57,690 bases of DNA from assembly GCA_944388995.1 (NCBI GenBank), contig CALXKN010000010.1:1-57690 (forward strand). The letters run 5' to 3'. Under the pieces are notes generated by a model, which saw only the letters and a list, made by a program, of their open reading frames with translations, was not told the origin of the DNA and searched no databases. Shown here one piece after another: positions 1 to 43,579 of the stretch. The position numbers were made by a program, and so were the translations under genes. Each line of letters opens with the position of its first letter. Within the stretch, counting starts at the first letter, position 1. Source of the DNA: an uncultured Spirochaetota bacterium (GTDB lineage: Bacteria > Spirochaetota > Spirochaetia > JAFGXN01).

Positions 1-1384
1 TTATAATCACCGGAGGAGTGGAATCAGTCATTTGAATGGAGATGGAAAGAGGGGCGGAAGGATTTCCTGCGGCGTCTTTAGCGGAAATGGAGACCTGTTT
101 GATATTGACTTGGGAAGTTGGGTTATAGTAGTCGAAAAGGTTAGTATCGGCGCCCTTGTCGTGGTTAAGAGTGGTGATGAGGTCGTTAGAGGAGTCGGAA
201 TTGGAGGAGATGTAGGAGATGGAGATGGTGATGGGGTTGGAATTGGAGGAGTGGGAGTCATCTGAGGCGGAAGGGTCGTCGCCGTCGATGGAGGAGCCGT
301 CCTCAAAGATGATGAAAGGGGAAGAGGTGGAGGTGAGGGTTTGGGCGGTACCTTCAGACCAAGAGTTATCGGAAACCTGAATCTGCATCCTGGTGAAGAG
401 ATCCGTCCAAGCGGAGGAGTTGTTGTTCCACATATCGACTTCGATTTGATACATACCGTTAGAGGGTTGCTCGCCTGCGATAGTAAGTACGGGCGGTTCG
501 GTGTCGGTCTGGGGAAGAATCCAGAACTGAGCGGTTCCGGTGTTATTCTCGCTGTCGGAAACGGTCAGTTCGTAAGCGGTGACCGATCCTGCGCTGTCGG
601 TTTTCAAAGCGGTAACAAGACTGTTTTCCGCCTCTGCTGTGAGGGCGACTTTGTAGGAAATGTCGCCGTCTTCCAGGTCGTAAGCCTGAAAAAGAGGCAG
701 GGTGCTTTCAATGTAAGCCTTGATATTTTCATCCGAAGCGGAACTGCCTTGCACCTGCATGGAGAAAGGATTGTCTTCGGAACTTCCGGGACCGTCAAGG
801 ACAATTCTAGGATTAGAAGATTCGAGGACATAAACGAAAAGGGAAGCGGAGCCTGAGACGCCGGAGGAATCAGAGACGGAGTAAGAGACGAGGTAAGTAC
901 CGACAGAGGATGTATCGACGGAAGAGGCGTCGACGGAGACGGAATCGGAGAGGTCTGAGCCGTCATAAGCGAAAGCGGAGACGGAGGGAGGGGAGAAGTC
1001 AGAGTTGAGAGGGATGAGGAGAGGGTTGGCGCCGGAGATGGAGATTTGAGGAGCGAAAGCGTCGCCGACGTTGACGGTACGAAAGAGAGGGTCTGATTTA
1101 ACGCCTTTACGGTCGACGGCGACATAGGAGACTTGGTAAGAGCCTTCTTTGCCCATGTTTAAGGAGGAGATATCGCGACGGACGAGAGAGGAGACGTCGT
1201 TACCGTCGACGTCCGTGGCGATGTAGCCGTATTCGACGTAAGTGTCGTTGACGTTGAAAAAGACCTCCGACGGACCAATCAGCACAATACGCGGAGCCAC
1301 ATCAATTTCGCGTCCGTTCTGGTCGGGACACGAAACCAATAAAAACGGAATCAAAATCAAAGATAAAAACAAAAACTTTTTCAT
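1..1384 (-). CDS. Large Ig-like surface lipoprotein, 3' end beyond the window
   Basis: The frame is open from the ATG at 1384 to the left edge, giving 461 codons without a stop. The N-terminus is a hydrophobic signal ending in a lipobox (LLVSC, Cys19), so this is predicted to be a secreted, lipid-anchored protein. The body is rich in Ser, Asp, Thr and Val. It contains repeated Ig-like units of the DUF5011 or bacterial-Ig kind, with patterns such as P-x-I-x-I-x-G and G-x-Y-x-V-x-Y near residues 30-95, 95-185 and later. The start overlaps the stop of the next upstream gene as ATGA, so translation is probably coupled. It is the last visible gene of a five-gene lipoprotein operon. Codon use is mosaic: coding-strand pyrimidine runs with TCC, CTC and ATC dominate about 1-340 and 845-1250, while 345-840 looks like the neighbours. 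Ligand and function are unknown. Confidence 0.8.
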   Translation of the reverse strand, partial: MKKFLFLSLILIPFLLVSCPDQNGREIDVAPRIVLIGPSEVFFNVNDTYVEYGYIATDVDGNDVSSLVRRDISSLNMGKEGSYQVSYVAVDRKGVKSDPLFRTVNVGDAFAPQISISGANPLLIPLNSDFSPPSVSAFAYDGSDLSDSVSVDASSVDTSSVGTYLVSYSVSDSSGVSGSASLFVYVLESSNPRIVLDGPGSSEDNPFSMQVQGSSASDENIKAYIESTLPLFQAYDLEDGDISYKVALTAEAENSLVTALKTDSAGSVTAYELTVSDSENNTGTAQFWILPQTDTEPPVLTIAGEQPSNGMYQIEVDMWNNNSSAWTDLFTRMQIQVSDNSWSEGTAQTLTSTSSPFIIFEDGSSIDGDDPSASDDSHSSNSNPITISISYISSNSDSSNDLITTLNHDKGADTNLFDYYNPTSQVNIKQVSISAKDAAGNPSAPLSISIQMTDSTPPVII

Positions 1385-1812
1385 TCTTCTGTCTCCCCGG
1401 CAGAGGGCTCTTCGTCCTTCGCCTTTTCTACACGATAATAATAACTCACCCCGGATCCCTCGAGCGTCAGAACCCGTTTGTCAAAAGAAAGAGTCATTTT
1501 ATACGAATAGGTCAGCGGTTCGTCGCCGTCCGGAGTCAGCGAAAGCACATACCACTTTTCACCGTAATCGTAAGAATGCCGGACGTTGTAAGTGCCGCTC
1601 ACCGGCTCCACAATATCGGCGCCCTGAATCTGCCGCGTCCAGTTGAAGCGGAATTTTCCTTTTTCGTAATACAAGTCCAAGGTTTCCGTAATTTCGCCGT
1701 TTTCCCAGACCCAATAATCGGTCAGTCCGGCCGTGGTGGCGCTGTCAAACCCATCGGGCAGACAGGACGCCAAGGCAAAAACCGCGCTTATTAATACAAC
1801 TGCTTTTTTCAT
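1381..1812 (-). CDS. Small putative lipoprotein, 143 aa
   Basis: The 143-residue product has a signal peptide with lipobox (ALASC, Cys17) followed by a short beta-strand-rich domain. Alternating hydrophobic and aromatic segments (WVWENGEITET, KFRFNWTR, YVLSLTPDGDEPLTYSYKM) suggest a small barrel or lipocalin-like fold, but no family is recognised with certainty. A charged, Glu-rich tail closes the protein. Its stop overlaps the start of the Ig-like lipoprotein (ATGA), and it begins 9 bp after the stop of the 931-residue fibronectin-type lipoprotein, so it belongs to the same operon. It is similar in size and style, though not obviously in sequence, to the first gene of the operon at 6263-6682. 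Confidence 0.75.
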   Translation of the reverse strand: MKKAVVLISAVFALASCLPDGFDSATTAGLTDYWVWENGEITETLDLYYEKGKFRFNWTRQIQGADIVEPVSGTYNVRHSYDYGEKWYVLSLTPDGDEPLTYSYKMTLSFDKRVLTLEGSGVSYYYRVEKAKDEEPSAGETEE

Positions 1813-1821
1813 CTCACACTC

Positions 1822-4617
1822 CTACCACTTCGTTGTTCCGTAATTGACGGACGCCTGATTCCCCTTGTTAATCATAAACGAGTTGTTTTCGGGATACGGA
1901 CGCGCCGGCCAGTTGATCCGGGTAAAGTGCCACGAACTGCCGCCGCTCTTCGGATACGACGATTTTTCAGAGGGGTTCAGATCGCGGTCCCAATCGTAAC
2001 CATGCACCTGATAATCGAAGACGTCCTTCGCTCCCGTTCCCTTCATAATGATCTCCGACGGATCAAAGGTAACGGAAGAGTGTTTGTTTGCCTTCACGGT
2101 CACGTAACCGCCTTTCTTGTAAGTGCCGTCGCTCTCCGACCACAGACCCCAGAACGGACCGAAGTCGCGGACCGTCATCTGCAGATCCATGCTGCCGCTG
2201 AAATACGGAGTGGTCAGCTGAACGCCGTTGAGGGTCACCTGCCGCGGCTGGTTAGACTCCAGCGAAACCTTCATGCTCATCGACAGCTTGATCGTATAAC
2301 CGTCCCAGTCGCTGTAATTCGTTCCGTCGGTACCGCCCGAACCGCTGAGGTTGGTCACGCTTCCGACATTGAACACCATCCGGCCGCCTTTTTCCCCGTT
2401 GTGGGAAAAGCTCAGACTCGGCAGCCAGCTGACCGTCTTGTCCCACAGACACCGCGGGATGTTCAGCTGCCAAATCGAGTTGAGGGCGCAGTCGGTCATC
2501 CATTTTGCCAGGTGTGCAAACTCCTTGTCGCTCAAATCGGGGTAACCGGTTGCGGGCGTCGAATTGAGGACGGTCTCCTTGTTCCCGCCGTCGGGGGTGA
2601 GATCGACGGCAACCAGCGTGTATTTGATTTTCATAAACTGCCTCATGTCGACGTCTTTTTTGCGCATGATGCACTTCCACGCTTCGCGGTCCCACGTCGC
2701 GTAATCCCAAGTGACCGTCCCGGTCTCCTGACCCTTCGCATTGTAATCGGGCATCGGGTCGTTCCACTCGATGACGCCGGAGTTAAAGGAGTCGGCCATT
2801 GAATAAGTCGTCGTGCGCTCCGGCAGCGCCTGTCCCTGTTTTGAGAAGACTTTGGCGTCGTTCGCGTTGGTGTTGGCGGGCGGCATACTGAGCGGGTAAA
2901 CGCCGTCTTCATCGCCGTAATAGCACGTTCTTTTCAGTTTAATGTCGTACAGGTAACCGATTTCCGAATTCAAATCCAGTTCGGCGGTGACCTTGACCGT
3001 ACCGATTTCGGTTCCCTGCGACGCTTCGATGCTGATCAGCGACGGAGCCCGTCTTTCAAAGTACATGGCCTGCGTGAAATCCGACCGTCCGACAAGGTTG
3101 GCGCTTTCCGTTTCCTCCTCACCAACGCTGCTGTTTAACTCTTTCTTATACTTTTCCCCCTCTTCCGACAGCGTCACGCCGGTTGACGGATCGTAAGCGG
3201 TAACCAGCGCCGTATTGACCGGCAGAACGCGGAAGTAGAGTTTGGCGTCGGCGATGGTCGTTTCGTTTAAAATTCCGCTCAAATCGCTTTCGCTGACGGT
3301 CGTTTCCGTCGCCGTCACGGCGCCGCTGCCGATCAGCTTCCACTCGGTATCAGTGCTCGGAACGCTGCCGCTTGATCCGTCGGCCGCCAGCAGGTAGTAA
3401 CCGGCGCCGCTGAACGTCTGCGGCCACGAAACGTAAAACCCGGTGCGCTGCAGCATAATGTACGGCTGCGTTCCGGCTGCCGAAGGAATGGCCCGTCCGG
3501 TAACGCGCAGCTGTTCGCCGACTTCCGAAATATTGGGGGAAGAAAGCGATCCCGCGCCGTAGTCGTTGACGGCCGCCACGCGGTAGTAGAAGGGTTCGCC
3601 CGTCGCAACAACGGGGTCGGTGTCATACCAAACGGTAGATCCGTTGTCGGTTTTCAGGCTATCCGCATCAACAGCAATTTCCGTTCCGACGTAGTCGCCG
3701 CCGTCCAAATTCTCCTGGGTGATACGGTAAACAAAGTAACTTTCGGCGTCGGCGTCCGTCGTCCACGCCACGCGGATGGCTCCGAGAACGGCGTTTTGGG
3801 AAACGCTTTCGATATGACCTTCAGCCGGCGCTCCGGCGGAAAGCAGAGCTCCGCGGGCATAACCGCTGCGCTCCGCCGTGGTTTCGCGGTCAAAGCACGC
3901 TTCAACATAGTAATAGTAACTCTTTCCCGATTCCAGCGCGCCGCCGTTGGTGACGCTGTAATCGTCGTAGGAAAGCCCCGTAAACGCCTGATCCAGCCTT
4001 TCAAAGTTTTCGAGGTTGGGAACAACGCCTTCATACGGTTCAACGGCGCGGTAGAGGTAATAAAAAGACGCTCCGTTGACGGCTCCCCACGTGATGGTGA
4101 CCTTTTCCGTCGAAACGCGGAAATCCGCCGAAATGGTCGAGACGCCGGCCAGCGCATACCCTTCCGCCGGAGCGCTTAAAACCGATCCTTCGGTATTCGG
4201 CGAGCTCATGTTGACGGCGCGCACGTAATACCTGTAAACAACGCCCGGTTCAACCGTTCCCGCAACCAAATCATCAAAATAGAGGTCGGCAATCGGGCGG
4301 TAACCGGTCAGACGCAGCAACGCCGTCTCTCCGTCTTTTGCCTGCGTTTCCCTGTAAACATGATACTGAATTTGGGAATCGCCGTAAAACACCTGCTGCC
4401 ACGAAATGCGGATGCGGTCGCTGAAATCGCCCTGGGTGGCGCTCACCATCGTCGGAATGGGGATGGAGGCGTCAATTACATAATCGTTCTGCGGATCGGA
4501 GACTTCCACCGCCCCCGCCGTTTTACTGAACGTTCCGTTTAAACTGCGCAGCTGGTTGGCGCAGCCTACCGCCAGCAAGACGGATAAAATCAAAAGGAAT
4601 GTTTTCTTCATTTTCAT
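1822..4617 (-). CDS. Fibronectin type III repeat lipoprotein, 931 aa
   Basis: The signal peptide ends in a lipobox-like AVGC (Cys19), so the product should be anchored to a membrane from the outside. At least three fibronectin type III-like units follow, at roughly residues 50-155, 160-265 and 270-370, with a probable fourth near 385-480. They are recognised by the recurring pattern I-x-I-x-W ... Y-x-V-Y-R ... Y-Y-Y-V-x-A. The C-terminal 450 residues lose the repeat pattern and are rich in aromatic, Gly and Ser residues; their fold is unknown. The start overlaps the upstream gene by ATGA (4614-4617). In bacteria such repeats usually act as spacers in surface or carbohydrate-binding proteins; adhesion or glycan binding is an inference. 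Confidence 0.8.
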   Translation of the reverse strand: MKMKKTFLLILSVLLAVGCANQLRSLNGTFSKTAGAVEVSDPQNDYVIDASIPIPTMVSATQGDFSDRIRISWQQVFYGDSQIQYHVYRETQAKDGETALLRLTGYRPIADLYFDDLVAGTVEPGVVYRYYVRAVNMSSPNTEGSVLSAPAEGYALAGVSTISADFRVSTEKVTITWGAVNGASFYYLYRAVEPYEGVVPNLENFERLDQAFTGLSYDDYSVTNGGALESGKSYYYYVEACFDRETTAERSGYARGALLSAGAPAEGHIESVSQNAVLGAIRVAWTTDADAESYFVYRITQENLDGGDYVGTEIAVDADSLKTDNGSTVWYDTDPVVATGEPFYYRVAAVNDYGAGSLSSPNISEVGEQLRVTGRAIPSAAGTQPYIMLQRTGFYVSWPQTFSGAGYYLLAADGSSGSVPSTDTEWKLIGSGAVTATETTVSESDLSGILNETTIADAKLYFRVLPVNTALVTAYDPSTGVTLSEEGEKYKKELNSSVGEEETESANLVGRSDFTQAMYFERRAPSLISIEASQGTEIGTVKVTAELDLNSEIGYLYDIKLKRTCYYGDEDGVYPLSMPPANTNANDAKVFSKQGQALPERTTTYSMADSFNSGVIEWNDPMPDYNAKGQETGTVTWDYATWDREAWKCIMRKKDVDMRQFMKIKYTLVAVDLTPDGGNKETVLNSTPATGYPDLSDKEFAHLAKWMTDCALNSIWQLNIPRCLWDKTVSWLPSLSFSHNGEKGGRMVFNVGSVTNLSGSGGTDGTNYSDWDGYTIKLSMSMKVSLESNQPRQVTLNGVQLTTPYFSGSMDLQMTVRDFGPFWGLWSESDGTYKKGGYVTVKANKHSSVTFDPSEIIMKGTGAKDVFDYQVHGYDWDRDLNPSEKSSYPKSGGSSWHFTRINWPARPYPENNSFMINKGNQASVNYGTTKW

Positions 4618-6266
4618 GCCTCACCTCCCGCTTCACTGCTTCCTTCGCCGCCGTCACCCGTTCCGGGTTCAGGCTCCGGCTCAGGCACGGGTTCGGGTTC
4701 ATCAACCGCATCCGCCGCGACAGTCACTTCACCGCTTTCGTAAATAATTCCGGTATTGCCGGAATCGTCGACGCCGGCCACACCAAACCAGTAGCTGCCG
4801 GCCGCCAGACCGCCGATCTGCATCGAGGAAACCCCGGAAACGGTGCCGATATCCTCAAGCTGACTGAATTCGGCTTCGCCTTCTTTCTTCATATAGAGAT
4901 ACCAGCCTTGAAAACCGTTCCCTTCCATTCCCGACCAGGTAACGCTCACGCTATTGGCCTTCTCGGAAACTGCGGAAACTGTCCCGTCTTTCCAGATTTC
5001 GGCCTCGGTCGGACCGACAACATATCCGCTCGCCTTGTTCGACCACGGCATGTTGGTGTACTGCGAACCGTATTTCGGTCTGACCTGAAAATAAACGGGA
5101 ACATTCCAGATATCCTCCGCCGCCAAAGCGCTTGCGTCGGAGGAGGGAGTGTAGTCGCTGTCAACAATAATATAAAAACGGTAGACAGTCAGATTCCCCT
5201 CCGATTCGGAGTAAATCTGTGTCTGCGCAACAGGAGCACCCGCCACAGTTCCCTGGGGAGAAAAATCGGAGAAATTGTTGTTGTTGTAACCGGAAAGCCA
5301 CGGCATCTGAATATTCGTTCCCCAGGAAGCGCCCGTAAAGTTGGGAGCGCTCAGCCCGTCCAATCCGGAAGCGGAAGCGGCAACGCGGATGTCAAACTCC
5401 AGTTTGGAAAGGATACTCTTCAGTTCGGCGTCCTCCGCCACAACGTCGCCGGCGTCAAGCATTACGGTCTGAATCTCCCATTCAACCTCAAAAATACCCT
5501 TATTGCCGTCATATTTTCCTTCACCGCCCTGCCCGGCGCGCAGCCAGCGCACCTGCGGCAAAGCCCAGACTTTTTCAGCCACCGAGGAGACGCCGAGCAG
5601 ACCGGCGGCGTTAATCGGCGTAATGCGGTAATCATAGCGGTATCCGGCAACCGCCGTCTGATCAGTGTAACGGTATTTCGAATCGCTGATGTTGGCGGGG
5701 ATGTTCCTGGCCGCAATCACTTCCCATGCCGTATCGTCCGCGCCCGTCCGCCGCCGCTCAATGCGGTAAGAGTCGGCGTCTTTTGCCTGCGCATAAGTCA
5801 GCACAACCGACGTTTCCGTTCCGCGGGATCCCCAAAATTCATGACAGAATTCACTGTAAACAGTATCGTTTCCGATGACAATCGGCAGCGGCGCGCTCGG
5901 CGACGAAACCACTCCATTGATATTGACGGTTTTAATCCGCACTTCCGCCGTAAAACCTTCGTCTCCCAACTCGACAGGAAAACGGTACTGAGCCGTTTCG
6001 ACTTTCTCCGTCGCGGCGTAATCGCCGGCAACCGTCAATTCATACTCCTTCGCATTGGCGACGGAATTCCATGTGATTAAAACCGATTGCTGCGCATTTT
6101 CGGCTATCACAGAATAAGAAATACCCGACGGCGGCAAAACACCCGAAGAGGCCAACGACTCGGAGAGAACCGTCTCGTTGCCAGTCAGTTCGTCATCAAT
6201 CAGCGTTCCCCAACCGCAGCCGGCCGCCAGAAACGCCGCGCAAAAAACAGAAACCGCTCTTTTCAT
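4614..6266 (-). CDS. Fibronectin type III-like lipoprotein with acidic Pro/Glu tail, 550 aa
   Basis: The N-terminus carries a lipobox (LAAGC, Cys17). Fibronectin III-like modules are visible at about residues 45-130, 140-245 and 425-510, with the strand patterns VLITWNSV ... YELTVAG and VSVTWSG ... GWYLYMK. A less regular middle part lies between. The extreme C-terminus is a low-complexity tail of Pro-Glu repeats followed by Gly, Ser and Glu, probably an extended spacer. Both ends are coupled: the start overlaps the 139-residue lipoprotein gene and the stop overlaps the 931-residue lipoprotein gene, each as ATGA. It resembles the downstream 931-residue protein in architecture, so the two may work together or have arisen by duplication. 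Function is unknown. Confidence 0.8.
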   Translation of the reverse strand: MKRAVSVFCAAFLAAGCGWGTLIDDELTGNETVLSESLASSGVLPPSGISYSVIAENAQQSVLITWNSVANAKEYELTVAGDYAATEKVETAQYRFPVELGDEGFTAEVRIKTVNINGVVSSPSAPLPIVIGNDTVYSEFCHEFWGSRGTETSVVLTYAQAKDADSYRIERRRTGADDTAWEVIAARNIPANISDSKYRYTDQTAVAGYRYDYRITPINAAGLLGVSSVAEKVWALPQVRWLRAGQGGEGKYDGNKGIFEVEWEIQTVMLDAGDVVAEDAELKSILSKLEFDIRVAASASGLDGLSAPNFTGASWGTNIQMPWLSGYNNNNFSDFSPQGTVAGAPVAQTQIYSESEGNLTVYRFYIIVDSDYTPSSDASALAAEDIWNVPVYFQVRPKYGSQYTNMPWSNKASGYVVGPTEAEIWKDGTVSAVSEKANSVSVTWSGMEGNGFQGWYLYMKKEGEAEFSQLEDIGTVSGVSSMQIGGLAAGSYWFGVAGVDDSGNTGIIYESGEVTVAADAVDEPEPVPEPEPEPGTGDGGEGSSEAGGEA

Positions 6267-6682
6267 TTCGCGACCTCCTTTGTATAAAAGCGCTGTTTGG
6301 AAACGGTGTCGGTTTCAAGGGAATAGGTCCCCAGCACCAACATTTTCCCGCTGTTTTCCAAGGCATAAAGTTTCACGTAAGGCTTTGTGTCCTTCGGAGA
6401 AGTCGGCGTAAACGACAGAACGCGCTGTTCGTCTTCCACGTTGCCGACAACCTGCATCTCCGCGACAAAGGTCCCCTCTTCTTTGTAAACGCTCTTGCCG
6501 TCCTGTTTACGCTCGTACGTGTAAGCGCCGCCCTTATTCAGGACGTAAGTCTCTTCATACAAGACGGAAAGCTGATTGGCGTGCGAAACCCAAACCCCTT
6601 CCACGCGGTTGGAGGTTGTCATATCGCAGGCCGACATCAAAAACGCAACCAAAAGCAAAACACCGAAATACTTAATTTTCAT
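6263..6682 (-). CDS. Small putative lipoprotein, first gene of the lipoprotein operon
   Basis: This 139-residue protein has a clear type II signal (LLLVAFLMSAC, Cys19). The mature part is about 120 residues of alternating beta strands (VEGVWVSHANQL, AYTYERKQDG, YKEEGTFVAE, VLGTYSLETDT), which suggests a small lipocalin-like or similar barrel. No catalytic motif is visible. A strong ribosome binding site (TTAGGAG) precedes the ATG at 6682, and a TATAAT hexamer lies at 6731-6736 on the minus strand. It is therefore probably the promoter-proximal gene of the five-gene operon running leftwards. Its stop overlaps the next start as ATGA. Confidence 0.75.
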   Translation of the reverse strand: MKIKYFGVLLLVAFLMSACDMTTSNRVEGVWVSHANQLSVLYEETYVLNKGGAYTYERKQDGKSVYKEEGTFVAEMQVVGNVEDEQRVLSFTPTSPKDTKPYVKLYALENSGKMLVLGTYSLETDTVSKQRFYTKEVAK

Positions 6683-6900: not shown

Positions 6901-8829
6901 ATGAAAAAAATAGTGTTTCTGTTGATTTTTTGTCCGTCCGCGGCTCTCTGGGCGGCCGGACCGGCGCTGATTCCGCGGCCGGCGGAGGCCGTTTCCACCG
7001 GCGGAGAGGCCCGGCTGCCCTCCGCTTTGGTTTACGGCAGCTGCCCGCAGGAGGCCGAAAGCGCCGCCGCTTTTTACAACCGCATGGGAAAGGGACTTCA
7101 GACCTCAATGTCCGCGGGCGCCGGAGCCAATCTTGAACTGACGGCCGACGCTTCCCTCGGCGCGGAGGCCTACACGCTTGCCGTTGAGGACGGCCGCGTG
7201 CGGATTGCCGCCGGCGGCAAAGCCGGCTTTGTCTACGCATTCTCGGCGCTGCTGCAGCTGCAGGGACTGAAACCTTCCGAAGCGGTGAGCGTCAGCGATG
7301 CGCCGTTTCAGCCGTGGCGCGGCTTTATGCTCGATTCCGCCCGCCATTTTCAAAGCGCCGAAACGGTTCTGGCGCTGCTGGACAAACTGGCGTTTTCGCG
7401 GATCAACCGCCTTCACTGGCACTTGTCCGACAACGACGGCTGGCGCATTGAAAGCAGAAAATATCCGAAACTGAACGAAATTGCCTCCAACGTCGGCCGC
7501 TATCCCGAGTCGGAGCGCAACGGCTTTTACACGGTTGAGGAAATTCACCGCGTTCTGGACCGGGCGGCGGAACTGGGCATCACCGTTTACCCCGAAATCG
7601 ACCTGCCGGGACACGCGGCGGCTTTCGTCGAGGCGTACCCCGAATTCCTTTGTCCGACCAATCCGAGTCCCGTTTCGGTGAAAGAGCGGCTTTCCAACGC
7701 CGCCTGGACCGAAATTCTCTGCGTCGCCAACCCCGATCTCTTTCCGTTTCTGACCGGCGTTCTTGACGAAATGATTGAAATCTTCCGCAATCCCGAATAC
7801 TTTCACATGGGGGGAGACGAAGTTCCCCTCGGCATTTGGGAAAAGTGTCCGCTCTGTTCCGAAAAAATGAAGGCCGAAGGACTCGGCGAAAAAGAGCTTC
7901 TGACGGCGTTTTTGAAGCAGTACGCGGCTTATTTGGAGGGAAAAGGTATCACGCCGGTTTACTGGTGCGAATATCCGTCCCTGAAAATCAGCGACCGGGC
8001 GATTGCCCAGGTTTGGCGCGCCTTTGTCGGCAAATCCTACCTGAAAAAGTCGCTGAAAGCGGGAATCCGGACTTTGAACGCCTGCGGCGATTACGCTTAT
8101 TTGGATTATCCCGAATACCCCGGAATGTGCAAGTCGGCGTGGATGCCGCTGCTTCCCCTGAAAAAAGTTTACAACTATCCGTACCTGCCTTCGGCCCTGA
8201 CGCCCAACCGCGATCTGTTTATCGGCGGCGCCTGCACCATGTGGACGGAAGAAATCAATGAGGAGGCGGTTGACGAAACGCTCTTTCCCCGGCTCTTTGC
8301 GGTTTCCGAACAGCTGTGGACGGAAAAAAGCCTGAAAAACTTTAAGAATTTCGAAGCGCGCCTGAATACGCTGCGGCCGGTTTTTGCCGCCGTCGGCATC
8401 GGCCTCTCCGAGCCGCCGTCGCGCGAAAAGCTGCGTTCCGAAATCAGGGCGACGGTTGAATGCGACGTTGCCTTCGCCAACAACACGTGGCCCGAATACG
8501 CAGTCAACGGACGCGACGCCGACGCGTTTGTTTCGGCTTCCGCGCCGAAAGAGGGGCAGTCGTTCACCGTTATTTACGACGAGCCGAAACAAGGCTCCCT
8601 GCTTCAAATCATTTCAGGCGGGTTTTTCATCCATGACGCCCAAAACGGACGCATTGACGACGGAACGCCGGTTTTCATCCTCACTTCGCCGGACGGCGAA
8701 TGGACGCAGACCGCTTCGTTTGAAAAAGGCATAGCGGAAGCAGAGGTGACGGCGCCGGTTTACGGCGTCAGAATCGGATTCCTCAACGAGGATGAGCGCA
8801 TTTCCGTGAATGAAATTGTCATCAAATGA
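6901..8829 (+). CDS. Beta-N-acetylhexosaminidase, GH20 family
   Basis: This 642-residue exported glycoside hydrolase should remove terminal GlcNAc or GalNAc from glycans. A Sec signal (cleavage near ALWAAG) precedes an N-terminal GH20b-like domain. The catalytic barrel starts near residue 138 (WRGFMLDSARHF). The substrate-loop motif HWHLSDNDGWR lies near 175, and the diagnostic HMGGDEVP carries the catalytic Asp306-Glu307 pair. The last 150 residues form a separate beta-rich domain, possibly a sugar-binding F5/8 type. A Cys at residue 11 of the signal does not sit in a good lipobox, so periplasmic rather than lipid-anchored location is favoured. It heads an operon with a small lipoprotein and a TatD-like hydrolase, joined by an ATGA overlap at 8826. 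Substrates may be host mucin or bacterial cell-wall sugars. Confidence 0.93.
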   Translation: MKKIVFLLIFCPSAALWAAGPALIPRPAEAVSTGGEARLPSALVYGSCPQEAESAAAFYNRMGKGLQTSMSAGAGANLELTADASLGAEAYTLAVEDGRVRIAAGGKAGFVYAFSALLQLQGLKPSEAVSVSDAPFQPWRGFMLDSARHFQSAETVLALLDKLAFSRINRLHWHLSDNDGWRIESRKYPKLNEIASNVGRYPESERNGFYTVEEIHRVLDRAAELGITVYPEIDLPGHAAAFVEAYPEFLCPTNPSPVSVKERLSNAAWTEILCVANPDLFPFLTGVLDEMIEIFRNPEYFHMGGDEVPLGIWEKCPLCSEKMKAEGLGEKELLTAFLKQYAAYLEGKGITPVYWCEYPSLKISDRAIAQVWRAFVGKSYLKKSLKAGIRTLNACGDYAYLDYPEYPGMCKSAWMPLLPLKKVYNYPYLPSALTPNRDLFIGGACTMWTEEINEEAVDETLFPRLFAVSEQLWTEKSLKNFKNFEARLNTLRPVFAAVGIGLSEPPSREKLRSEIRATVECDVAFANNTWPEYAVNGRDADAFVSASAPKEGQSFTVIYDEPKQGSLLQIISGGFFIHDAQNGRIDDGTPVFILTSPDGEWTQTASFEKGIAEAEVTAPVYGVRIGFLNEDERISVNEIVIK

Positions 8830-9239
8830 AAAAATTGATTTTCTGTCTGCTTGCGCCGGTGTTCTTCTCGTGTCTGAACATCTCTTACGAGGCGCTTTAT
8901 CAAATAAAGACGGCTTCTTCGTCTCCTTATAAATTCGAGGCGGTTCTTTCCGACGGGGGAACCGCTTCGGTCTCTTCCGCTTCAGCGGCACCCCATACGC
9001 TGCTTTCCCTGCCGATTTCCCTGACGGAAAAAGAAGCGGCCGCGCTCGACGAAAAGGGCTTCCGCGCGCTTTGTCCGCCGCCGTCGGAAGTGATGAAAAC
9101 GGTCAACGTTTACACCGTCTCAACGTCTTCAGGCACGCAGACGGAAACTTTACAGCGTTCCGTGACTGTCAGCGACAGCGAATGGAGTTTCCGGCGGCTT
9201 TCGCGCAATATGGGAGCATATATTTATGAGCTTAAATAG
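8826..9239 (+). CDS. Small putative lipoprotein, 137 aa
   Basis: The 137-residue product has a type II signal peptide ending in VFFSC (Cys16), then a Ser-, Ala- and Thr-rich mature domain with no recognised family. The ATG overlaps the stop of the hexosaminidase gene as ATGA, and its 3' end overlaps the TatD-like gene by 14 bases, so the three are translated together. A link to glycan use is suggested only by position. Confidence 0.7.
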   Translation: MKKLIFCLLAPVFFSCLNISYEALYQIKTASSSPYKFEAVLSDGGTASVSSASAAPHTLLSLPISLTEKEAAALDEKGFRALCPPPSEVMKTVNVYTVSTSSGTQTETLQRSVTVSDSEWSFRRLSRNMGAYIYELK

Positions 9240-10870: not shown

Positions 10871-13368
10871 AAAAGTGCGAACTTTCCGTCGGCGGCATGA
10901 CCTGTTCGGCGTGCGCCGTTCATGTGGAAGACGCCGTAAAAAAAATCAAGGGCGTGCGCTCCGTTCAGGTCAACCTGCTGACGCGCAGCGCCAAAATCAC
11001 CTACGACGAAGCGCAGACCGAAACCGCCGCTTTTGCCGAAGCGGTCAAAAAGGCCGGATACGTTCCGGGAACCGTTTCTGCCGACGGAAAGAAGACTCCC
11101 GTTTCCGAAGCGGCGGCCGATAACGACCGCGCCGCCCGAAACCGTCTGACGGCCTCAGCCGCGTTTGCGCTTCCGCTGTTTTTCTTGGCGATGGCGCCGA
11201 TGACCGGCGTTCCGCTTCCGGGAATTCGCGGACCGGCCGGAATTTTTGCCTATGCTTTCACGCAGTTCCTGCTGCTGCTCCCGATTCTGTTTCTGAACCG
11301 TTCGTATTTTATCGCCGGCTTCAGAACCTTGCTTCATGGAACGCCGGTCATGGATTCGCTGATTGCCGTCGGCGCCGGCGCGGCTGTTTTATCCGGCGTT
11401 GCCGCGCTCTACGGAATCGGTTACGGTTTGGGAACCGGCGAAGCGGAGATTGTTCACCGTTTCTCAATGCGGCTTTACTTTGAATCGGCCGGAATGATTC
11501 TGACTTTGGTTTCCCTTGGGAAATATCTGGAGAAGCGGGCGCAGCGCAAAACGTCATCCGTTATTGAAAAGCTGATCAATTTGGCTCCGAAAACGGTGAT
11601 TCTTCTGCGCGGCGGAAAAGAAGAAACCGTCGCGGCCGAAAACGCGGCTGCCGGCGATCTCATCCTTCTGCGGCCGGGTGACACGGCGGCAGTTGACGGA
11701 ACGGTCGAGGAAGGTTACTCGTCGGTCGACGAATCGGCGCTGACGGGCGAAAGCCTTCCCTCCGAAAAGAAAACCGGCGACACCGTTATGGCCGGCTCCG
11801 TCAACCTCGGAGGCGTGCTTAAAATCCGCGTCACGCAGGCGGGGAACGGAACGGCGCTGGCGCGTATCATCGCTCTGGTGGAAGAGGCTTCCGGTTCGAA
11901 AGCGCCGATTGCCCGGCTGGCGGATAAAATCAGCCGGATTTTTGTCCCCGCCGTCATGACGATTGCCCTTGCGGCGTTTTTACTCTCGTTTTTTGCGGAA
12001 GGAAGCGGCTTTGAAACGGCTTTCAGCCGCGCGGTTGCGGTTTTGGTCATCTCCTGCCCCTGCGCTCTGGGATTGGCGACGCCGACGGCCATCATGGTCG
12101 GAATCGGAAAAGGCGCCGAACTGGGAATTTTGATCCGCAACGGGGAAATTCTCGAAAGAGCGGGAAAAATCAATACGCTTCTGCTGGACAAAACCGGCAC
12201 GCTGACACAGGGGCATCCGTCCGTCACCGAAGCGCGGCCGGCCGCAGGGATTTCCGCCGCCGAGCTGGCCGCTTACGCGGCCGCAGCCGAATCAGGATCC
12301 GCCCATCCGCTGGCGGAGGCCGTCGCCGCCTATGCCGCCGATTTGCGGCCGGAAATACTGACGGTTTCCGACAGCCAGGCGGTTCCCGGCCGTGGTATAA
12401 AGTGTATTGCGGATGGAAAAGAAGTGACAGCCGGCAATTTCGCATTTATGAATGAAAACGGAGTCGCCGTTCCCGAAACAGATATTCCCGTCGGCGCGCA
12501 GACGCCGCTCTTTTTTGCTGTCGGGAAAAAGTACATCGGCGCGCTGTGGACGGAAGACCGCCTGAAAGACGATTCGGCTGCCGCCGTCGCCGCGCTGAAG
12601 CGGATGAAAATCGAACCCGTCATGCTGACAGGCGACCGCCCGCAGGCCGCTCAGGCGGTTGCCGAAGCCGTCGGCATCGCCCGTTTCAAAGGCGGACTAC
12701 TGCCGCAGGACAAGGCGGCCGAAGCGGAAAACCTTCAGGCCGAAGGCCGCATTGTCGGAATGGCAGGCGACGGCATCAACGACGCGCCGGTTCTGGCGCG
12801 CGCCGACATCAGCATCGCCCTTGAAGGCGGATCGGACATTGCCGTTGAAGCGGCCGACATCATTCTGATGAAAAACCGCCTCTCCGACGCCGTTACGGCC
12901 ATCCGTCTCAGCCGGAAAACGATGCTCAACATCAAAGAGAATTTGTTTTGGGCGTTCTTCTACAACTGTCTGGGAATTCCGGCCGCCGCCGGCCTGCTCG
13001 AAATTCTGTTCGGAATTCCGCTGAGCCCGATGTTTGCCGCCGCTGCCATGAGCCTTAGCTCGGTCTGCGTCGTCGCCAACGCGCTGCGCCTGAAACGCTT
13101 CAAACCGCAGGAAATTTCCCCGGCGCAAACCCGCTCTGTTTCAAAAGGAGATAAAAATATGGAAACAAAAATTCTGAAAATCGAAGGAATGATGTGCGAC
13201 CACTGCCGCAGCCATGTCGAATCGGCTTTAAATGCAATCGACGGCGTCAAAGCCTCCGTCAGTCTGCAAAAGGCCGAAGCCGAATGCCGTTTGGAGAAAC
13301 CGGTTGCCGACGAAGTTCTGACAAAGGCGGTGACCGACGCCGGCTACAAAGCCGTCCCGCTTTCCTGA
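10867..13368 (+). CDS. copA: Copper-exporting P1B-type ATPase with N- and C-terminal metal-binding domains
   Basis: The 833-residue inner-membrane pump carries the copper-ATPase signatures. It has an N-terminal heavy-metal domain with CSAC (Cys13, Cys16), membrane helices from about 95, the intramembrane CPC motif (397-399), the phosphorylation motif DKTGTLT (Asp441), SAHP in the nucleotide domain, GDGINDAP in the P domain, and MSLSS in the last helix pair, typical of Cu(I) pumps. Unusually, a second heavy-metal domain with CDHC follows the last helix through a polar linker. That domain starts at an internal Met765 with its own ribosome binding site (see the next entry). The gene overlaps cysE by ATGA and ends about 100 bases before a bidirectional terminator. 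Confidence 0.94.
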   Translation: MKKCELSVGGMTCSACAVHVEDAVKKIKGVRSVQVNLLTRSAKITYDEAQTETAAFAEAVKKAGYVPGTVSADGKKTPVSEAAADNDRAARNRLTASAAFALPLFFLAMAPMTGVPLPGIRGPAGIFAYAFTQFLLLLPILFLNRSYFIAGFRTLLHGTPVMDSLIAVGAGAAVLSGVAALYGIGYGLGTGEAEIVHRFSMRLYFESAGMILTLVSLGKYLEKRAQRKTSSVIEKLINLAPKTVILLRGGKEETVAAENAAAGDLILLRPGDTAAVDGTVEEGYSSVDESALTGESLPSEKKTGDTVMAGSVNLGGVLKIRVTQAGNGTALARIIALVEEASGSKAPIARLADKISRIFVPAVMTIALAAFLLSFFAEGSGFETAFSRAVAVLVISCPCALGLATPTAIMVGIGKGAELGILIRNGEILERAGKINTLLLDKTGTLTQGHPSVTEARPAAGISAAELAAYAAAAESGSAHPLAEAVAAYAADLRPEILTVSDSQAVPGRGIKCIADGKEVTAGNFAFMNENGVAVPETDIPVGAQTPLFFAVGKKYIGALWTEDRLKDDSAAAVAALKRMKIEPVMLTGDRPQAAQAVAEAVGIARFKGGLLPQDKAAEAENLQAEGRIVGMAGDGINDAPVLARADISIALEGGSDIAVEAADIILMKNRLSDAVTAIRLSRKTMLNIKENLFWAFFYNCLGIPAAAGLLEILFGIPLSPMFAAAAMSLSSVCVVANALRLKRFKPQEISPAQTRSVSKGDKNMETKILKIEGMMCDHCRSHVESALNAIDGVKASVSLQKAEAECRLEKPVADEVLTKAVTDAGYKAVPLS
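13159..13368 (+). CDS. Nested CopZ-like copper chaperone, in-frame internal start in copA
   Basis: An ATG at 13159, in frame with the copper ATPase, is preceded by AAAAGGAG (13143-13150) eight bases away, an excellent ribosome binding site. Translation from it would give exactly 69 residues. This matches the usual CopZ length and has a complete heavy-metal-associated domain with MMCDHC near the N-terminus (Cys13, Cys16) and the closing AGY segment. The same residues are also the C-terminus of the 833-residue pump. Either both products are made from one frame, or an ancestral separate copZ became joined to copA by loss of the stop codon. Dual expression is an inference; the site and frame are seen directly. 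Confidence 0.55.
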   Translation: METKILKIEGMMCDHCRSHVESALNAIDGVKASVSLQKAEAECRLEKPVADEVLTKAVTDAGYKAVPLS

Positions 13369-13468
13369 AAACGCGCTCCGCCGCGGCCGGTCCCCTTACC
13401 GCCCGCGGCCGTCCTTCCCGCACCCGTTTCAGGCGGCTGTCCGCGGTTGAGGCCGCCGTAAAAAAAGA

Positions 13469-13489
13469 GCCGCCCGAAGGCGGCCTTTT
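13469..13489. terminator. Bidirectional terminator between copA and the peroxiredoxin gene
   Basis: The stem GCCGCC / GGCGGC with a CGAA loop (13469-13484) is flanked by an A-run on the left and T-run on the right. It can therefore end both the rightward copper operon and the leftward peroxiredoxin gene. Confidence 0.75.
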
Positions 13490-13498
13490 CACGGATAT

Positions 13499-14218
13499 TT
13501 ATTTGTCTTTTCTGAAACACATAAACCAATCGAGACAGTATTGATCCGCGGTCTGCGTTTCCATACGCTCTTTCGCCGTTCCGCAGGAACCGGCAGTCGG
13601 AACAATGACGTCGTCGCCGGGGCGCCAGTCCGCCGGAGTCGCTACGTTGTCGGCGTCGGCTTTCTGCAGAGCCTGGACGAGCCGTTTGATTTCATCGAAA
13701 TTCCGTCCCGTCGACTGCGGATAGTACAAAATCGTGCGGATGATTCCCTTCGGATCAATGATGAAAACCGCGCGGACCGCCTGCGTTGTCGAGGCATTCG
13801 GCTGCAGCATTCCGTATTTCTTTGCGACTTCCATTTTAATGTCCTCAATCAGCGGGAAGGTCACTTCGATATTTTCCAAATCATTCCATTTCAGCTCCTG
13901 GATTTTTCTCAGCCACGCAATGTGCGCATAAATCGAATCGATCGACAGTCCGATCAGCTGCGTGTTGAGCGCTTCGAATTCATCCATCATCGACGCAAAT
14001 GTCATAAATTCCGTCGTACAGACCGGAGTAAAATCGGCCGGATGACTGAAGAGAATAACCCATTTCCCTTTAAAATCTTTCGGAAAGTTGATTTCTCCCT
14101 GGGTCGTCACGGCGGTAAACGCCGGCGCCGGATCGCCGATCAGAGGCATCCTGTTCTGTTCCTGTGCAAACGCACCCGCGGCCGTTAAGGCAAACAAAAA
14201 AATCAAGGCTTTTTTCAT
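13499..14218 (-). CDS. Exported peroxiredoxin of the Prx6/AhpC type
   Basis: Peroxiredoxins reduce peroxides through a reactive Cys. Here the motif HPADFTPVCTTE gives the peroxidatic Cys67. Several further Cys near the C-terminus (GSCGT, QYCLDWFMC) could resolve the disulfide. The Prx6-like C-terminal extension with the WRPGDD segment is present. The start at 14218 follows AGGAG at good spacing; an upstream-extended start lacks such a site. From this start the protein begins with a typical Sec signal (cleavage near GAFAQ), so it should act in the periplasm, which is unusual for this family. It has its own promoter with a palindrome in the spacer. The rubredoxin gene is directly upstream but separated by a terminator. 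Confidence 0.9.
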   Translation of the reverse strand: MKKALIFLFALTAAGAFAQEQNRMPLIGDPAPAFTAVTTQGEINFPKDFKGKWVILFSHPADFTPVCTTEFMTFASMMDEFEALNTQLIGLSIDSIYAHIAWLRKIQELKWNDLENIEVTFPLIEDIKMEVAKKYGMLQPNASTTQAVRAVFIIDPKGIIRTILYYPQSTGRNFDEIKRLVQALQKADADNVATPADWRPGDDVIVPTAGSCGTAKERMETQTADQYCLDWFMCFRKDK

Positions 14219-14236
14219 TCTTTTTCTCCTGTAAAA

Positions 14237-14265
14237 ATTATATATTTGTATAAAATACAAATCAA
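14237..14265 (-). promoter_or_regulatory. Peroxiredoxin promoter with a 19-bp palindromic operator candidate
   Basis: On the minus strand TTGATT (14260-14265), 17 bases and TATAAT (14237-14242) form a promoter. The spacer is almost wholly occupied by ATTTGTATAAAATACAAAT (14244-14262), an inverted repeat with eight perfectly paired positions on each side of three central bases. A repressor bound there would block RNA polymerase. A PerR- or Fur-like peroxide sensor is a guess from context. Confidence 0.6.
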
Positions 14266-14270
14266 AAGGC

Positions 14271-14295
14271 AAAAAAGAAAGGGGAAGACCCCTTT
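14271..14295 (-). terminator. Terminator after the rubredoxin gene
   Basis: The stem AAAGGGG / CCCCTTT with loop AAGA (14278-14295) is followed on the minus strand by a run of T. It separates rubredoxin transcription from the peroxiredoxin promoter immediately beyond it. Confidence 0.75.
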
Positions 14296-14302
14296 CCGTT
14301 AT

Positions 14303-14461
14303 TTACTGTGCGGAAAACATACTTTTCGCCGCACCGCAAACCGGACAAACCCAATCGTCGGGAATATCCTCAAAAGCCGTTCCCGGCGCAATGCCGCTGT
14401 CCGGATCTCCGATCATCGGATCATATACGTAACCGCACAAATCGCAAACATATTTCTGCAT
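14303..14461 (-). CDS. Rubredoxin
   Basis: This 52-residue protein has the two rubredoxin iron-binding motifs, CDLCGY (from Cys6) and CPVCGA (from Cys39). The aromatic core and the GDPDSGI/PGT segment are typical of the family. A single Fe bound by four Cys transfers electrons in the cytoplasm, in treponemes and clostridia often to rubrerythrin, superoxide reductase or peroxidases. It has its own consensus promoter (14486-14514), an AGGAG ribosome binding site and a strong terminator, so it is a one-gene unit. The neighbouring peroxiredoxin suggests oxygen defence. Confidence 0.93.
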
Positions 14462-14485
14462 AGCGTTCTCCTTTCCTGATATTTT

Positions 14486-14514
14486 ACCATAACCGCAAAG
14501 ACGGATTTTGTCAA
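14486..14514 (-). promoter_or_regulatory. Rubredoxin promoter
   Basis: On the minus strand TTGACA (14509-14514), a 17-base spacer and TATGGT (14486-14491) precede the gene, followed by a GGAGA ribosome binding site just before the ATG at 14461. Confidence 0.65.
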
Positions 14515-14557
14515 CTGTTGTGATTCAATTTTTTTATTTTTTATAAAAAATATTTCC

Positions 14558-14587
14558 TTTTAAAGAGGGCGTCCCGGCGGACGCCCT
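14558..14587 (-). terminator. Terminator of the symporter gene
   Basis: The stem AGGGCGTCC / GGACGCCCT with loop CGGC (14566-14587), followed on the minus strand by CTTTAAAAGG, lies 13 bases after the stop of the symporter gene. Confidence 0.65.
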
Positions 14588-14599
14588 GTAATCCGAAAA

Positions 14600-16516: not shown

Positions 16517-16555
16517 GAAAACTCCTCTGGATTAAAATAGAATTACTGTTTTATA

Positions 16556-16584
16556 ATTTTATAACGCCCCCACTGATTTGTCAA
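16556..16584 (-). promoter_or_regulatory. Promoter of the symporter gene
   Basis: On the minus strand TTGACA (16579-16584), a 17-base spacer and TAAAAT (16556-16561) are followed by a GAGGAG ribosome binding site before the ATG at 16516. Confidence 0.65.
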
Positions 16585-16706
16585 TTTTTTTTTCTTTGGT
16601 AAGGCAAAAAAATCATTTTCTGCCTGTTAATTCACCGTTTTGACTGGAAAAAATCCCTGTTTCGGTATAAAATATATACGGCTGATATTAAAAAAAGGAG
16701 ATTAAA

Positions 16707-16931
16707 ATGAAAACGATTTTTGATTTAGCCATTTCGGCCGCCGAGATGGAAGACATTCTCGGACAGACAATGAATGCGGACGAATACGCAAAGCTCAGAA
16801 CCAATCCGGACGAAATTGCCGGAGACACATACTGCCTGCTCCGCTACCGGGGAAACGACGCGGAAGCCGAAACCGTTCTTGCTCAAATCGGCGACAAAGC
16901 GTTTGCGGAAAGCCTGAAATCCAGTTTTTAA
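16707..16931 (+). CDS. Small protein of unknown function, 74 aa
   Basis: A 74-residue soluble, acidic protein with no recognised family. It contains a helical N-terminal half and the conserved-looking segment TYCLLRYRG near the middle. An AAAGGAG ribosome binding site precedes the ATG. It is the first gene of a small operon: the TrpR-family regulator starts 11 bases after its stop, and the zinc ribbon protein overlaps that regulator. It may be a partner or effector of the regulator, but only its position suggests this. Confidence 0.65.
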   Translation: MKTIFDLAISAAEMEDILGQTMNADEYAKLRTNPDEIAGDTYCLLRYRGNDAEAETVLAQIGDKAFAESLKSSF

Positions 16932-16942
16932 TCCGGATAGAA

Positions 16943-17236
16943 ATGAATTTCGACTGCGAATCGGAGTGGAGCGAAATTACAGAGACCCTCGCCTCCATAA
17001 CCGATAAGGATTTTATGAAGGATCTGATGCTCGTACTGCTGACTGCCGGCGAAAGGGAAGAGCTGGCCAAACGGTGGGCTCTGGTCAAACAGCTTTACGC
17101 AGGCCGCCCGCAGCGGGCGATTGCCAATGACTTGGGTTTGAGCCTCTGCAAAATCACGCGCGGCTCAAAGGAACTGAAGCGGGAAAACTCCGCGTTTGTC
17201 CGGATTTTCCGCATGAAGGAGGAGCGAAGTGGCTAA
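16943..17236 (+). CDS. TrpR-family DNA-binding regulator
   Basis: The 97-residue protein matches the Trp repressor/YerC superfamily. LTAGEREELAKRWALVKQL aligns with the first helices, and RAIANDLGLSLCKITRGSKELK with the helix-turn-helix of TrpR, including the diagnostic ITRGS. TrpR binds operators when loaded with tryptophan; YerC-type relatives have other or unknown effectors. The ITRGS-x-x-LK element favours TrpR proper. No trp biosynthesis gene lies nearby, and I found no clear trp operator upstream, so the targets are unknown. It is co-transcribed with the 74-residue protein upstream and overlaps the zinc ribbon gene by eight bases. Confidence 0.8.
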   Translation: MNFDCESEWSEITETLASITDKDFMKDLMLVLLTAGEREELAKRWALVKQLYAGRPQRAIANDLGLSLCKITRGSKELKRENSAFVRIFRMKEERSG

Positions 17237-23648: not shown

Positions 23649-23653
23649 GCCTC

Positions 23654-23659
23654 ATTATA
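23654..23659 (-). promoter_or_regulatory. -10 box of the zinc protein/rlmKL operon, leaderless position
   Basis: A perfect TATAAT on the minus strand lies five bases before the ATG at 23648, so transcription should begin at the start codon. The -35 region is weak. Confidence 0.5.
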
Positions 23660-23682
23660 GCGCAAAATTTTCGAAAATTCCA

Positions 23683-23711
23683 TTGCAAAAAACTGCGGTT
23701 TGGAATATTTT
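23683..23711 (+). promoter_or_regulatory. Promoter of pyrG, apparently leaderless
   Basis: TTGCAA (23683-23688), a 17-base spacer and TATTTT (23706-23711) end six bases before the ATG at 23718. No Shine-Dalgarno sequence lies in front of the ATG. It is divergent from the zinc protein promoter in the same 69-base gap. Confidence 0.5.
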
Positions 23712-23717
23712 TAATCT

Positions 23718-43578: not shown

Positions 43579-43579
43579 A

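Follow-up and report, generated by a model that had tools for sequence, protein, structure and literature searches.

An operon of five lipoprotein genes, repeated in one family of Spirochaetota, with a conserved G3 C-terminal region and an exchangeable G5 tip

Free-living spirochaetes are rich in lipoproteins, but, a few pathogens apart, little is known of how these bacteria take hold of polymers or partners. What, then, is the meaning of a run of five lipoprotein genes in the genome of an uncultured spirochaete, and do these genes form a unit? The window, i.e., the whole stretch of 57,690 nucleotides that was analysed, is the entire contig C10, and the run occupies positions 1-6682 on the minus strand.

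G1 (6263..6682, 139 amino acids) and G2 (4614..6266, 550 amino acids) are followed by G3 (1822..4617, 931 amino acids), G4 (1381..1812, 143 amino acids) and the Ig-like G5 (1..1384, i.e., <2-1384; 461 codons, thus at least 461 amino acids). An SpII lipobox was recognised by our own regular expression on 5/5 proteins, the mature cysteine being Cys19 for G1, G3 and G5 and Cys17 for G2 and G4. The spacings of the junctions are −4, −4, +9 and −4 bases. The five consecutive lipoproteins of the initial annotation, with three 4-base overlaps and one 9-base gap among four junctions, are thus confirmed. It must be noted that such overlaps are ordinary in the window (exactly 4 bases in 7 of 28 same-strand neighbour pairs). 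According to our own gene table, 9 of the 49 genes of at least 80 amino acids in the window encode lipobox proteins, and a run of at least five was obtained in 534 of 200,000 label shuffles of this table. Over the seven loci considered below, 30 of 34 proteins have a lipobox by the regular expression; among the other four, three have a plausibly placed Cys by eye and the last is interrupted by an assembly break. C10 ends at base 1, so the G5 of the window is incomplete. In the syntenic copy of the sister genome (L035), G5 has 823 amino acids and precedes two further lipoproteins of 221 and 98 amino acids.

The genes are linked, not scattered, in relatives: the order and strand of G1-G5 are kept in 7/7 loci and in 3/3 genomes of the family, a single genome having as many as three divergent copies. 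Other treponemes, which had been proposed for a gene-order search, proved to be the wrong place, since the only three genomes in which the full operon was found belong to one family, two of them being uncultured spirochaete metagenome bins. The profile of the C-terminal region of G3 (G3C) matches 3 of 392 Spirochaetota genomes, and a single G3C peptide pattern gave at least seven loci in two assemblies of an 84,980-species set, in a search which is not exhaustive (it missed G001:C2 and G002:C145, found by another search). On these counts a widespread system was rejected.

The distance matrices of G1, G2, G3C, G4 and G5N correspond closely in every pairing (r 0.92-0.97); when the labels are permuted, the observed value is attained in 3-7 of 2000, or 5-7 of 720, trials. 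Moreover, a seven-lipoprotein copy of 14.7 kb (G000:C4) is missing from the syntenic position of G001, where 57 bp separate mutY from the gene that follows. Kept order and strand, matching distance matrices and gain or loss of a whole block lead to the conclusion that the operon is a unit: its gene set, order and tight spacing are conserved, and it is repeated, evolves and is gained and lost as a whole. As contigs C10 and C7 each break off within the operon, a tandem duplication of the window operon and the C7 copy was suspected. It was rejected, since their G001 counterparts sit apart and have different flanks (C5 by GH20, C2 by paaK), and since the G1 that the C7 copy lacks lies at the end of the small contig C26.

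The small proteins had been described as two barrel-like proteins. This holds by prediction for G1, and for G4 only as a paralogue of G1 (phmmer cross-match, 6e-8). G1 is predicted to have a lipocalin-like fold, i.e., a barrel of eight antiparallel strands (AF2 pLDDT 85.5, pTM 0.77). The best fold match quoted is 4gzv_H (VIA Z 11.7, rmsd 3.8, 106 aligned); 4iab_B, a "putative monosaccharide binding protein", is near (Z 11.2, rmsd 3.9, 106 aligned), as are the treponemal Tp0751 (5jk2_I; Z 8.7, rmsd 3.4, 89 aligned) and TP0435 (4u3q_A; Z 8.4, rmsd 3.1, 85 aligned). A search of PDB sequences for G1 relatives gave no convincing match (best E 0.18, Alr1010). The lipocalin-fold lipoproteins of Bacteroides (4gzv, 4iab, 4i95) and T. 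pallidum (Tp0751, TP0435) thus share the predicted fold of G1; to our knowledge none of them is a member of such an operon.

G2 is probably made of Fn3-type repeats. It matches no Pfam family at E <= 0.1, and its homologue in L039 reaches 24.4 bits for fn3, narrowly below the cut-off of 25. As for G3, three Fn3-like motif pairs were found by our own regular expression at about residues 71-350 (3568..4407, minus strand), and a G3 paralogue (L006) matches fn3 at 1.1e-7. These results suggest that G3 consists of an Fn3-like N-terminal part and a conserved C-terminal part, the latter being G3C (about 400 amino acids; 1825..3045, minus strand; seen in alignments). G3C is the most conserved segment, or tied for it, in 21/21 pairs, with 25 invariant columns over 12 sequences. 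The core region of this compact, repeated and co-evolving gene set has no sequence match in Pfam, NCBIfam or PDB. The AF2 model of G3C has a pLDDT of 68.7 and a pTM of 0.74. Its residues 1-170 are modelled as Fn3-like (Z 8.6, rmsd 3.7, 103 aligned to 8g04_B), the fold comparison covering only residues 1-171 of about 407, and in the model a conserved D-R/T-E-A-W-K helix is inserted within this Fn3-like part. The fibronectin-type modules announced by the initial annotation are borne out only indirectly: neither G2 nor G3 of the window has a match to Pfam fn3 (PF00041) at E <= 0.1 or reaches its gathering score, but the paralogue, the motif pairs and the predicted fold of residues 1-170 favour them.

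A phage or viral origin was also considered. No relative with the G3C pattern was found in viral_contigs, and all Foldseek matches to viral models were of low TM, the best four having at most 0.21 by query length and two of these being named tail fibres. The result fits an Ig/Fn3 arrangement that is common, and this origin was dropped.

The Ig modules are clear-cut, since G5 passes PF16403 (Bact_surface_Ig-like) with 83.3 bits for a gathering score of 27 (E 1.3e-23), the strongest stretch being residues 114-181 (842..1045, minus strand). The C-terminal tip of G5, about 260 amino acids, is usually the most variable part; that of the window lies beyond the contig end. The tip was measured in 10 pairs, and in 8 of them it is the segment of lowest conservation. 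This is best seen in the ortholog pair C7/C26 vs. C2, where the identity is 99% for G1, 97% for G3, 99% for G4 and 97% for the N-terminal part of G5, and about 45% for the tip vs. 88-99% elsewhere, with an abrupt DNA boundary near G5 residue 510-520. In other words, the tip changes fast and is exchangeable, and the C-terminal region of G3 is conserved. The tip alleles differ along their whole length, with gaps, a sequence pattern which does not suggest a retroelement-type mutator. In the three genomes, all draft assemblies, the tip profile gives eight full-length operon tips and five weaker rows, so no silent archive of tip cassettes is visible.

What does the tip bind? Glycan binding, which had been put forward, is weakly favoured: a tip relative, L098, which the tip profile recovers (E 5.2e-6), exceeds the cut-off of CBM_4_9 (PF02018) with 27.7 vs. 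25.9 bits, the gene after it encodes a GH63/trehalase/MGH1-type protein, and glycosidases stand beside some operon copies. None of the six operon tips scanned reaches that cut-off, one of them (L046) having 15.5 bits. Profile-profile alignment of the tip to six CBM_4_9 domains by hhalign is not significant (probability 2.4%, hardly above two controls), and a PDB search with the tip profile gave no match at E <= 5.

Outside the window operon, the divergent neighbour encodes a GH20 family protein (6901..8829, plus strand; PF00728, E 2.5e-86), and GH20 also adjoins the sister-genome copy G001:C5. Both G002 copies adjoin glycan enzymes, the neighbours being a GH2 with malectin, an alpha-1,3-glucanase and an esterase; PF22815 occurs once in the three genomes, next to the C145 copy. 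No glycosidase neighbour was recognised by eye for the C7 and C2 copies, and the neighbour of the C4 copy is a PI-PLC-like lipoprotein, not a glycosidase. It must be noted that the three genomes have 3, 7 and 7 GH20 matches. GH20 genes being so common, their adjacency to the operon may be due to chance, and adjacency was not retained as proof of a glycan role.

Taken together, the reading which we prefer, tentatively and with somewhat less than even confidence, is that of a family-specific, modular surface machine built of lipoproteins, which would catch glycans or glycan-covered surfaces. We infer that all five proteins are lipidated, are exposed on the outside of the outer membrane and form a complex. 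G3 would be the hub, via its conserved C-terminal region, with its Fn3 part and G2 as spacers; two small lipocalin-type subunits, G1 and G4, would lie close to the membrane. G5 would form an Ig-like stalk carrying a jelly-roll-like, carbohydrate-binding tip. Distinct copies and tip alleles may address distinct ligands, and the adjoining glycosidases and esterases may digest the captured material. Counted for this reading are the behaviour of the operon as a unit, the contrast between the conserved G3C and the changing tip, the score of L098, the glycoside hydrolase neighbours and the closeness of 4iab_B to the G1 fold; counted against it are the CBM_4_9 result for the six tips, the hhalign and PDB results for the tip, the missing tip of the window, the commonness of GH20, the C7, C2 and C4 copies with their lack of a recognised glycosidase neighbour, and the fact that neither a transporter nor a partner of the TonB type was recognised. 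G3C and the G5 tips are concrete targets for expression, and two near-identical operons with the tip as their main difference constitute a natural experiment.

The same architecture could also serve adhesion, i.e., attachment to other cells, matrix or particles by a protein-binding tip on an Ig/Fn3 stalk, with no nutrient role. Multi-Ig and Fn3 lipoproteins whose terminal domain is diverse are characteristic of adhesins, and the copies devoid of a recognised glycosidase neighbour agree with such a role. Tp0751, which with TP0435 is among the fold matches of G1, is reported as an adhesin (PMC5040251). However, likeness of fold shows no function, and the surface role of TP0751 is itself questioned in PMC7521688. 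Since, moreover, the sole tip relative to match a family matches a carbohydrate-binding one and the two metagenome bins have no tie to a host, we regard adhesion as unlikely. If attacks from phages, predators or competitors drove the change of the tip, ligand binding being secondary, the operon would mainly be a diversified surface coat. The replacement of the tip inside an otherwise near-identical operon and the gain and loss of whole copies point in this direction, as does the median dN of lipobox proteins (0.159, 23 pairs) vs. that of the others (0.013, 72 pairs), a contrast which is not genome-wide because the compared stretches were chosen around the operons. Against this, G3C is strongly conserved and the tip family stays recognisable; a coat thus seems improbable.

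It may finally be supposed that there is no complex, the five being independent, co-transcribed lipoproteins, in part periplasmic, linked by co-regulation or exchange of blocks. Indeed, G3C and G5-like genes occur as two-gene operons in L042, L043 and L046, in which G1, G2 and G4 are lacking, so the five are not always all needed together, and the many lipoprotein immunogens of T. pallidum are called periplasmic in PMC7521688. The fixed order, the tight spacing and the matching divergence over seven loci nevertheless exceed what co-regulation needs, which leaves this explanation quite improbable.

The surface machine of our preferred reading must be compared with known systems. The initial annotation knew of no named system of this kind; it had overlooked surface systems made of lipoproteins, among them type V pili and Sus-like complexes, although the present genomes lack the family markers of either. 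Mfa1 fimbriae are described as made of five proteins, four from one operon; the subunits undergo lipoprotein processing and arrive at the surface, and the tip carries accessory proteins (PMC5954841). In these respects type V pili (FimA/Mfa1, Bacteroidia) resemble the proposed machine. They differ in that the present operon encodes Fn3/Ig repeat chains and lipocalin-type barrels, and P_gingi_FimA (PF06321) was found in 0/3 family genomes, the Bacteroides control genome being positive. Sus-like systems comprise several co-encoded surface lipoproteins, and herein lies the likeness. SusD_RagB (PF07980) was again found in 0/3 family genomes with a positive control, and no SusC partner of the TonB type was noticed by eye. 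In Bacteroidota, Sus-like systems are described as serving the acquisition of polysaccharides or carbohydrates (PMC5080379).

Leptospira Lig and OmpL47-type multi-Ig proteins are spirochaetal surface proteins made up of bacterial Ig-like repeats; G5 scores 23.5 bits against NCBIfam OmpL47, far below the cut-off of 250, and we know of no description of Lig proteins within a fixed five-lipoprotein operon. Among the literature matches listed, no description of such a spirochaete lipoprotein operon was found. It is possible, though rather doubtful, that the operon represents a new Spirochaetota class of all-lipoprotein surface machine, i.e., an independently arisen counterpart of Sus-like systems or type V pili with an undescribed G3C hub and an exchangeable carbohydrate-binding tip; such a cassette would be duplicated within genomes, come and go as a whole and receive new tips.

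A similar arrangement outside the family is that of three loci of another spirochaete family (L118, L120, L122), in which a large Fn3-type protein, a second Fn3 lipoprotein and a small G1/G4-like lipoprotein are adjacent on one strand. These loci differ by having no G3C match and a non-lipoprotein of about 217 amino acids next, with further lipoproteins in two of them; of the 8 loci inspected beyond the family, no more than these 3 are of this type. The profile of the small lipoproteins has a wider distribution, with matches in 21 of 392 Spirochaetota genomes at E <= 1e-4.

The window is the entire contig C10 of a genome of 27 contigs and 1.93 Mb (completeness 98%, contamination 0.14%), and at its left end, on the minus strand, lies the operon (window 1-6682). 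In transcription order, as delimited by a simple gene caller of our own, it comprises G1 (6263-6682, 139 aa), G2 (4614-6266, 550 aa), G3 (1822-4617, 931 aa), G4 (1381-1812, 143 aa) and G5 (from 1384 past base 2, still open after 461 codons), all on the minus strand. The spacings G1/G2, G2/G3, G3/G4 and G4/G5 are −4, −4, +9 and −4, i.e., the tight coupling described in the initial annotation (three 4-base overlaps and one 9-base gap) is found again; such overlaps are frequent in the window (7 of 28 same-strand neighbours). A lipobox, labelled by regular expression, is present in 5/5 proteins, and a run of at least five lipobox genes arises in 534 of 200,000 shuffles of the window labels (9 lipobox among 49 genes). 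The succession of five lipoprotein genes stands, but not as the whole operon since the contig ends inside G5.

With G3 as query, 6 of 60 related genomes are positive. Strong relatives are confined to the own genome (G000), a sister genome in its genus (G001) and another in its family (G002); the three remaining positives give weak matches to the Fn3 part of G3. Dispersal of the genes in relatives is not observed: G1 to G5 occur with unchanged order and strand at seven loci in three genomes (G000 contigs C10, C7 and C4; G001 C5 and C2; G002 C146 and C145), a range that rests on drafts in all three cases. Besides the window copy, two of the seven are incomplete from assembly, C145 stopping after G4 and the C7 copy having its G1 on contig C26. 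The C7/C26 break is a poly-G run just after the G2 signal peptide (ends of loci L068 and L005), where the sister genome has a short G-rich stretch; it is probably a sequencing artefact, less likely a switch by slippage acting on a surface protein gene. Over the seven copies the spacings range from −8 to +12 and the kind of junction varies. The lipobox expression is matched by 30 of 34 proteins; inspection by eye shows a plausible Cys in three of the others, and the assembly interrupts the remaining one.

The C-terminal region of G3 (G3C, ~400 aa, window 1825-3045; alignment A1, 12 copies) gives a profile matched by 3 of 392 Spirochaetota genomes. A pattern scan of 84,980 species genomes, not exhaustive since two copies found by the G3 query escaped it, yields 14 hits, of which 7 are relatives, all in uncultured Spirochaetes BRZ_M__bin37 and Spirochaetales ZodW_Metabat.38; no relative of the pattern is found in viral_contigs. 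The small-lipoprotein profile reaches further (21/392 Spirochaetota genomes). At three of eight such loci opened outside the family (L118, L120, L122), two large Fn3-type proteins directly precede the small G1/G4-like lipoprotein, and the other five lack them; a second spirochaete family that lacks G3C may therefore share the general plan. It must be noted that these three loci belong to another spirochaete family and that a ~217-aa secreted protein, outer-membrane barrel-like by eye, comes next. Many more lipoprotein-only gene runs, with Ig/Fn3-type proteins above 1600 aa in other arrangements, are seen in the genomes that carry the operon, at L007, L040, L041, L044, L045, L047, L069 and L070.

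The Ig modules announced in the initial annotation are recovered in G5 (PF16403, a bacterial surface Ig-like family, E 1.3e-23). The fibronectin-type ones are supported indirectly: window G2 and G3 have nothing above cut-off in Pfam or NCBIfam, but a paralogue of G3 matches fn3 at 1.1e-7, a homologue of G2 reaches 24.4 bits (cut-off 25), and a regular expression of our own picks out three Fn3-like motif pairs in window G3. The barrel-like character attributed to the small proteins is supported for G1 by prediction. Mature G1 with eight relatives (9 rows) is modelled as eight antiparallel strands (pLDDT 85.5, pTM 0.77), and G4 is its paralogue (phmmer 6e-8; alignment A2). The top fold matches are Bacteroides lipocalin-like proteins, i.e., 4gzv_H (Z 11.7, rmsd 3.8, 106 aligned) and 4iab_B («putative monosaccharide binding»; Z 11.2, rmsd 3.9, 106 aligned); two T. 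pallidum lipoproteins come lower, 5jk2_I (Z 8.7, rmsd 3.4, 89 aligned) and 4u3q_A (Z 8.4, rmsd 3.1, 85 aligned). Searches of Pfam, NCBIfam and PDB give no sequence match to G3C. In its model (9 rows; pLDDT 68.7, pTM 0.74) the first half is Fn3-like with a conserved D-R/T-E-A-W-K helix inserted, close to 8g04_B (Z 8.6, rmsd 3.7, 103 aligned) and 5e55_A (Z 8.3, rmsd 2.9, 94 aligned).

In its evolution the operon acts as one unit. The pairwise identities of G1, G2, G3C, G4 and the N-terminal part of G5 are strongly correlated across copies (r 0.92-0.97); when labels are permuted, 3-7 of 2000 or 5-7 of 720 permutations attain such a correlation. The C4 copy occupies ~14.7 kb after mutY in G000, with two additional lipoproteins of 1170 and 1195 aa, and G001 has 57 bp from mutY to the same next gene; this block is thus present or absent as a whole. 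On the other flank of mutY, a 2.2-kb PI-PLC-like lipoprotein gene (Pfam) of G000 is also missing in G001. The 1170- and 1195-aa proteins, located after G5 (L048 1271-4783 and 4798-8385), match HYDIN/ASH-type Ig domains. Operons of just two genes, for a G3C protein and a G5-like protein, exist as well (L042, L043, L046), and their gene content suggests this pair as the core.

Conservation is uneven along the operon. G3C identity is highest, or tied highest, among segments in 21/21 copy pairs. The last ~260 residues of G5 (the tip) are the lowest in 8 of 10 measurable pairs, the exceptions being C5-C146 and C4-C146, where other segments are lower; G2 residues ~286-430 are also less conserved. 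The contrast is sharpest in the ortholog pair C7/C26 (G000) and C2 (G001), where identity is 99% for G1, 88% for G2, 97% for G3, 99% for G4 and 80% for G5, the last value because the tip is 45% identical despite 97% for the N-terminal part. The DNA of this pair changes abruptly near G5 residue 510-520 and the change extends across the intergenic gap into the flank; the tip looks to have been replaced. Stretches selected for the operons they surround give 95 reciprocal best pairs. The 23 lipobox pairs have a median identity of 77.5% and dN of 0.159, compared with 97.3% and 0.013 in the remaining 72; the label is the regular expression, some operon proteins missed by it count as others, and L082/L083 (29%), probably not orthologous, is kept.

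The tip looks like a jelly-roll carbohydrate-binding module, with mixed results from the tests. The CBM_4_9 cut-off is reached by 0/6 operon tips scanned (one at 15.5 bits) and by a related tip, L098 (27.7 bits, cut-off 25.9), which the tip profile matches at E 5.2e-6; comparison of the tip with CBM_4_9 by hhalign and of its profile with PDB does not support the carbohydrate-binding reading. The gene after L098 encodes a GH63/trehalase/MGH1-type protein. The C146 copy adjoins GH2 with malectin, and the C145 copy an alpha-1,3-glucanase and an esterase. A GH20 gene lies next to the window copy and to the corresponding copy in G001, but this family is frequent in the three genomes (3, 7 and 7 matches).

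The reading tentatively favoured is a surface complex with an exchangeable binding tip, whose surface exposure, assembly and ligand we infer. G3 would be the organiser, G2 and the Fn3 parts spacers, and G1 and G4 small barrel subunits; G5 would present the tip, and caught glycans would be kept for neighbouring enzymes. Among the alternatives, attachment without a feeding role appears rather unlikely, a diversified coat is improbable, and the absence of any complex has a small chance.

Sus-like complexes likewise consist of co-encoded lipoproteins, but the SusD family is found in 0/3 family genomes (Bacteroides control positive). Type V pili are also built of co-encoded lipoproteins according to PMC5954841, but FimA is found in 0/3 (Bacteroides control positive). 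By these markers the operon is thus no member of either system and resembles them in outline at most. A full-text literature search gave no paper on such an operon, and no studied protein of this family was met in the literature searched.

The divergence of the window from G001 is mosaic, with dS between about 0 and more than 1; exchange of DNA between these lineages, or else mis-binning, may account for it. Most genes of window 21136-26000 and 39500-48400 have dS of about 0-0.06, and much of the rest 0.5-1.0. At ~43865-43872, beside tRNA-Leu (43618-43701), ~6.2 kb of the sister genome are missing (L077 ~11880-18128), and the two flanking window matches overlap by 8 bases. This stretch encodes three lipobox proteins of 373 aa (BspA-like repeats), 524 aa (clostripain-like) and 1136 aa (HExxH metallopeptidase motif), features assigned by eye. 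A small lipoprotein gene without Pfam match (window 8826-9239) overlaps the GH20 gene by 4 bases; its product has 58% identity to the sister genome, against 86-97% for its neighbours.
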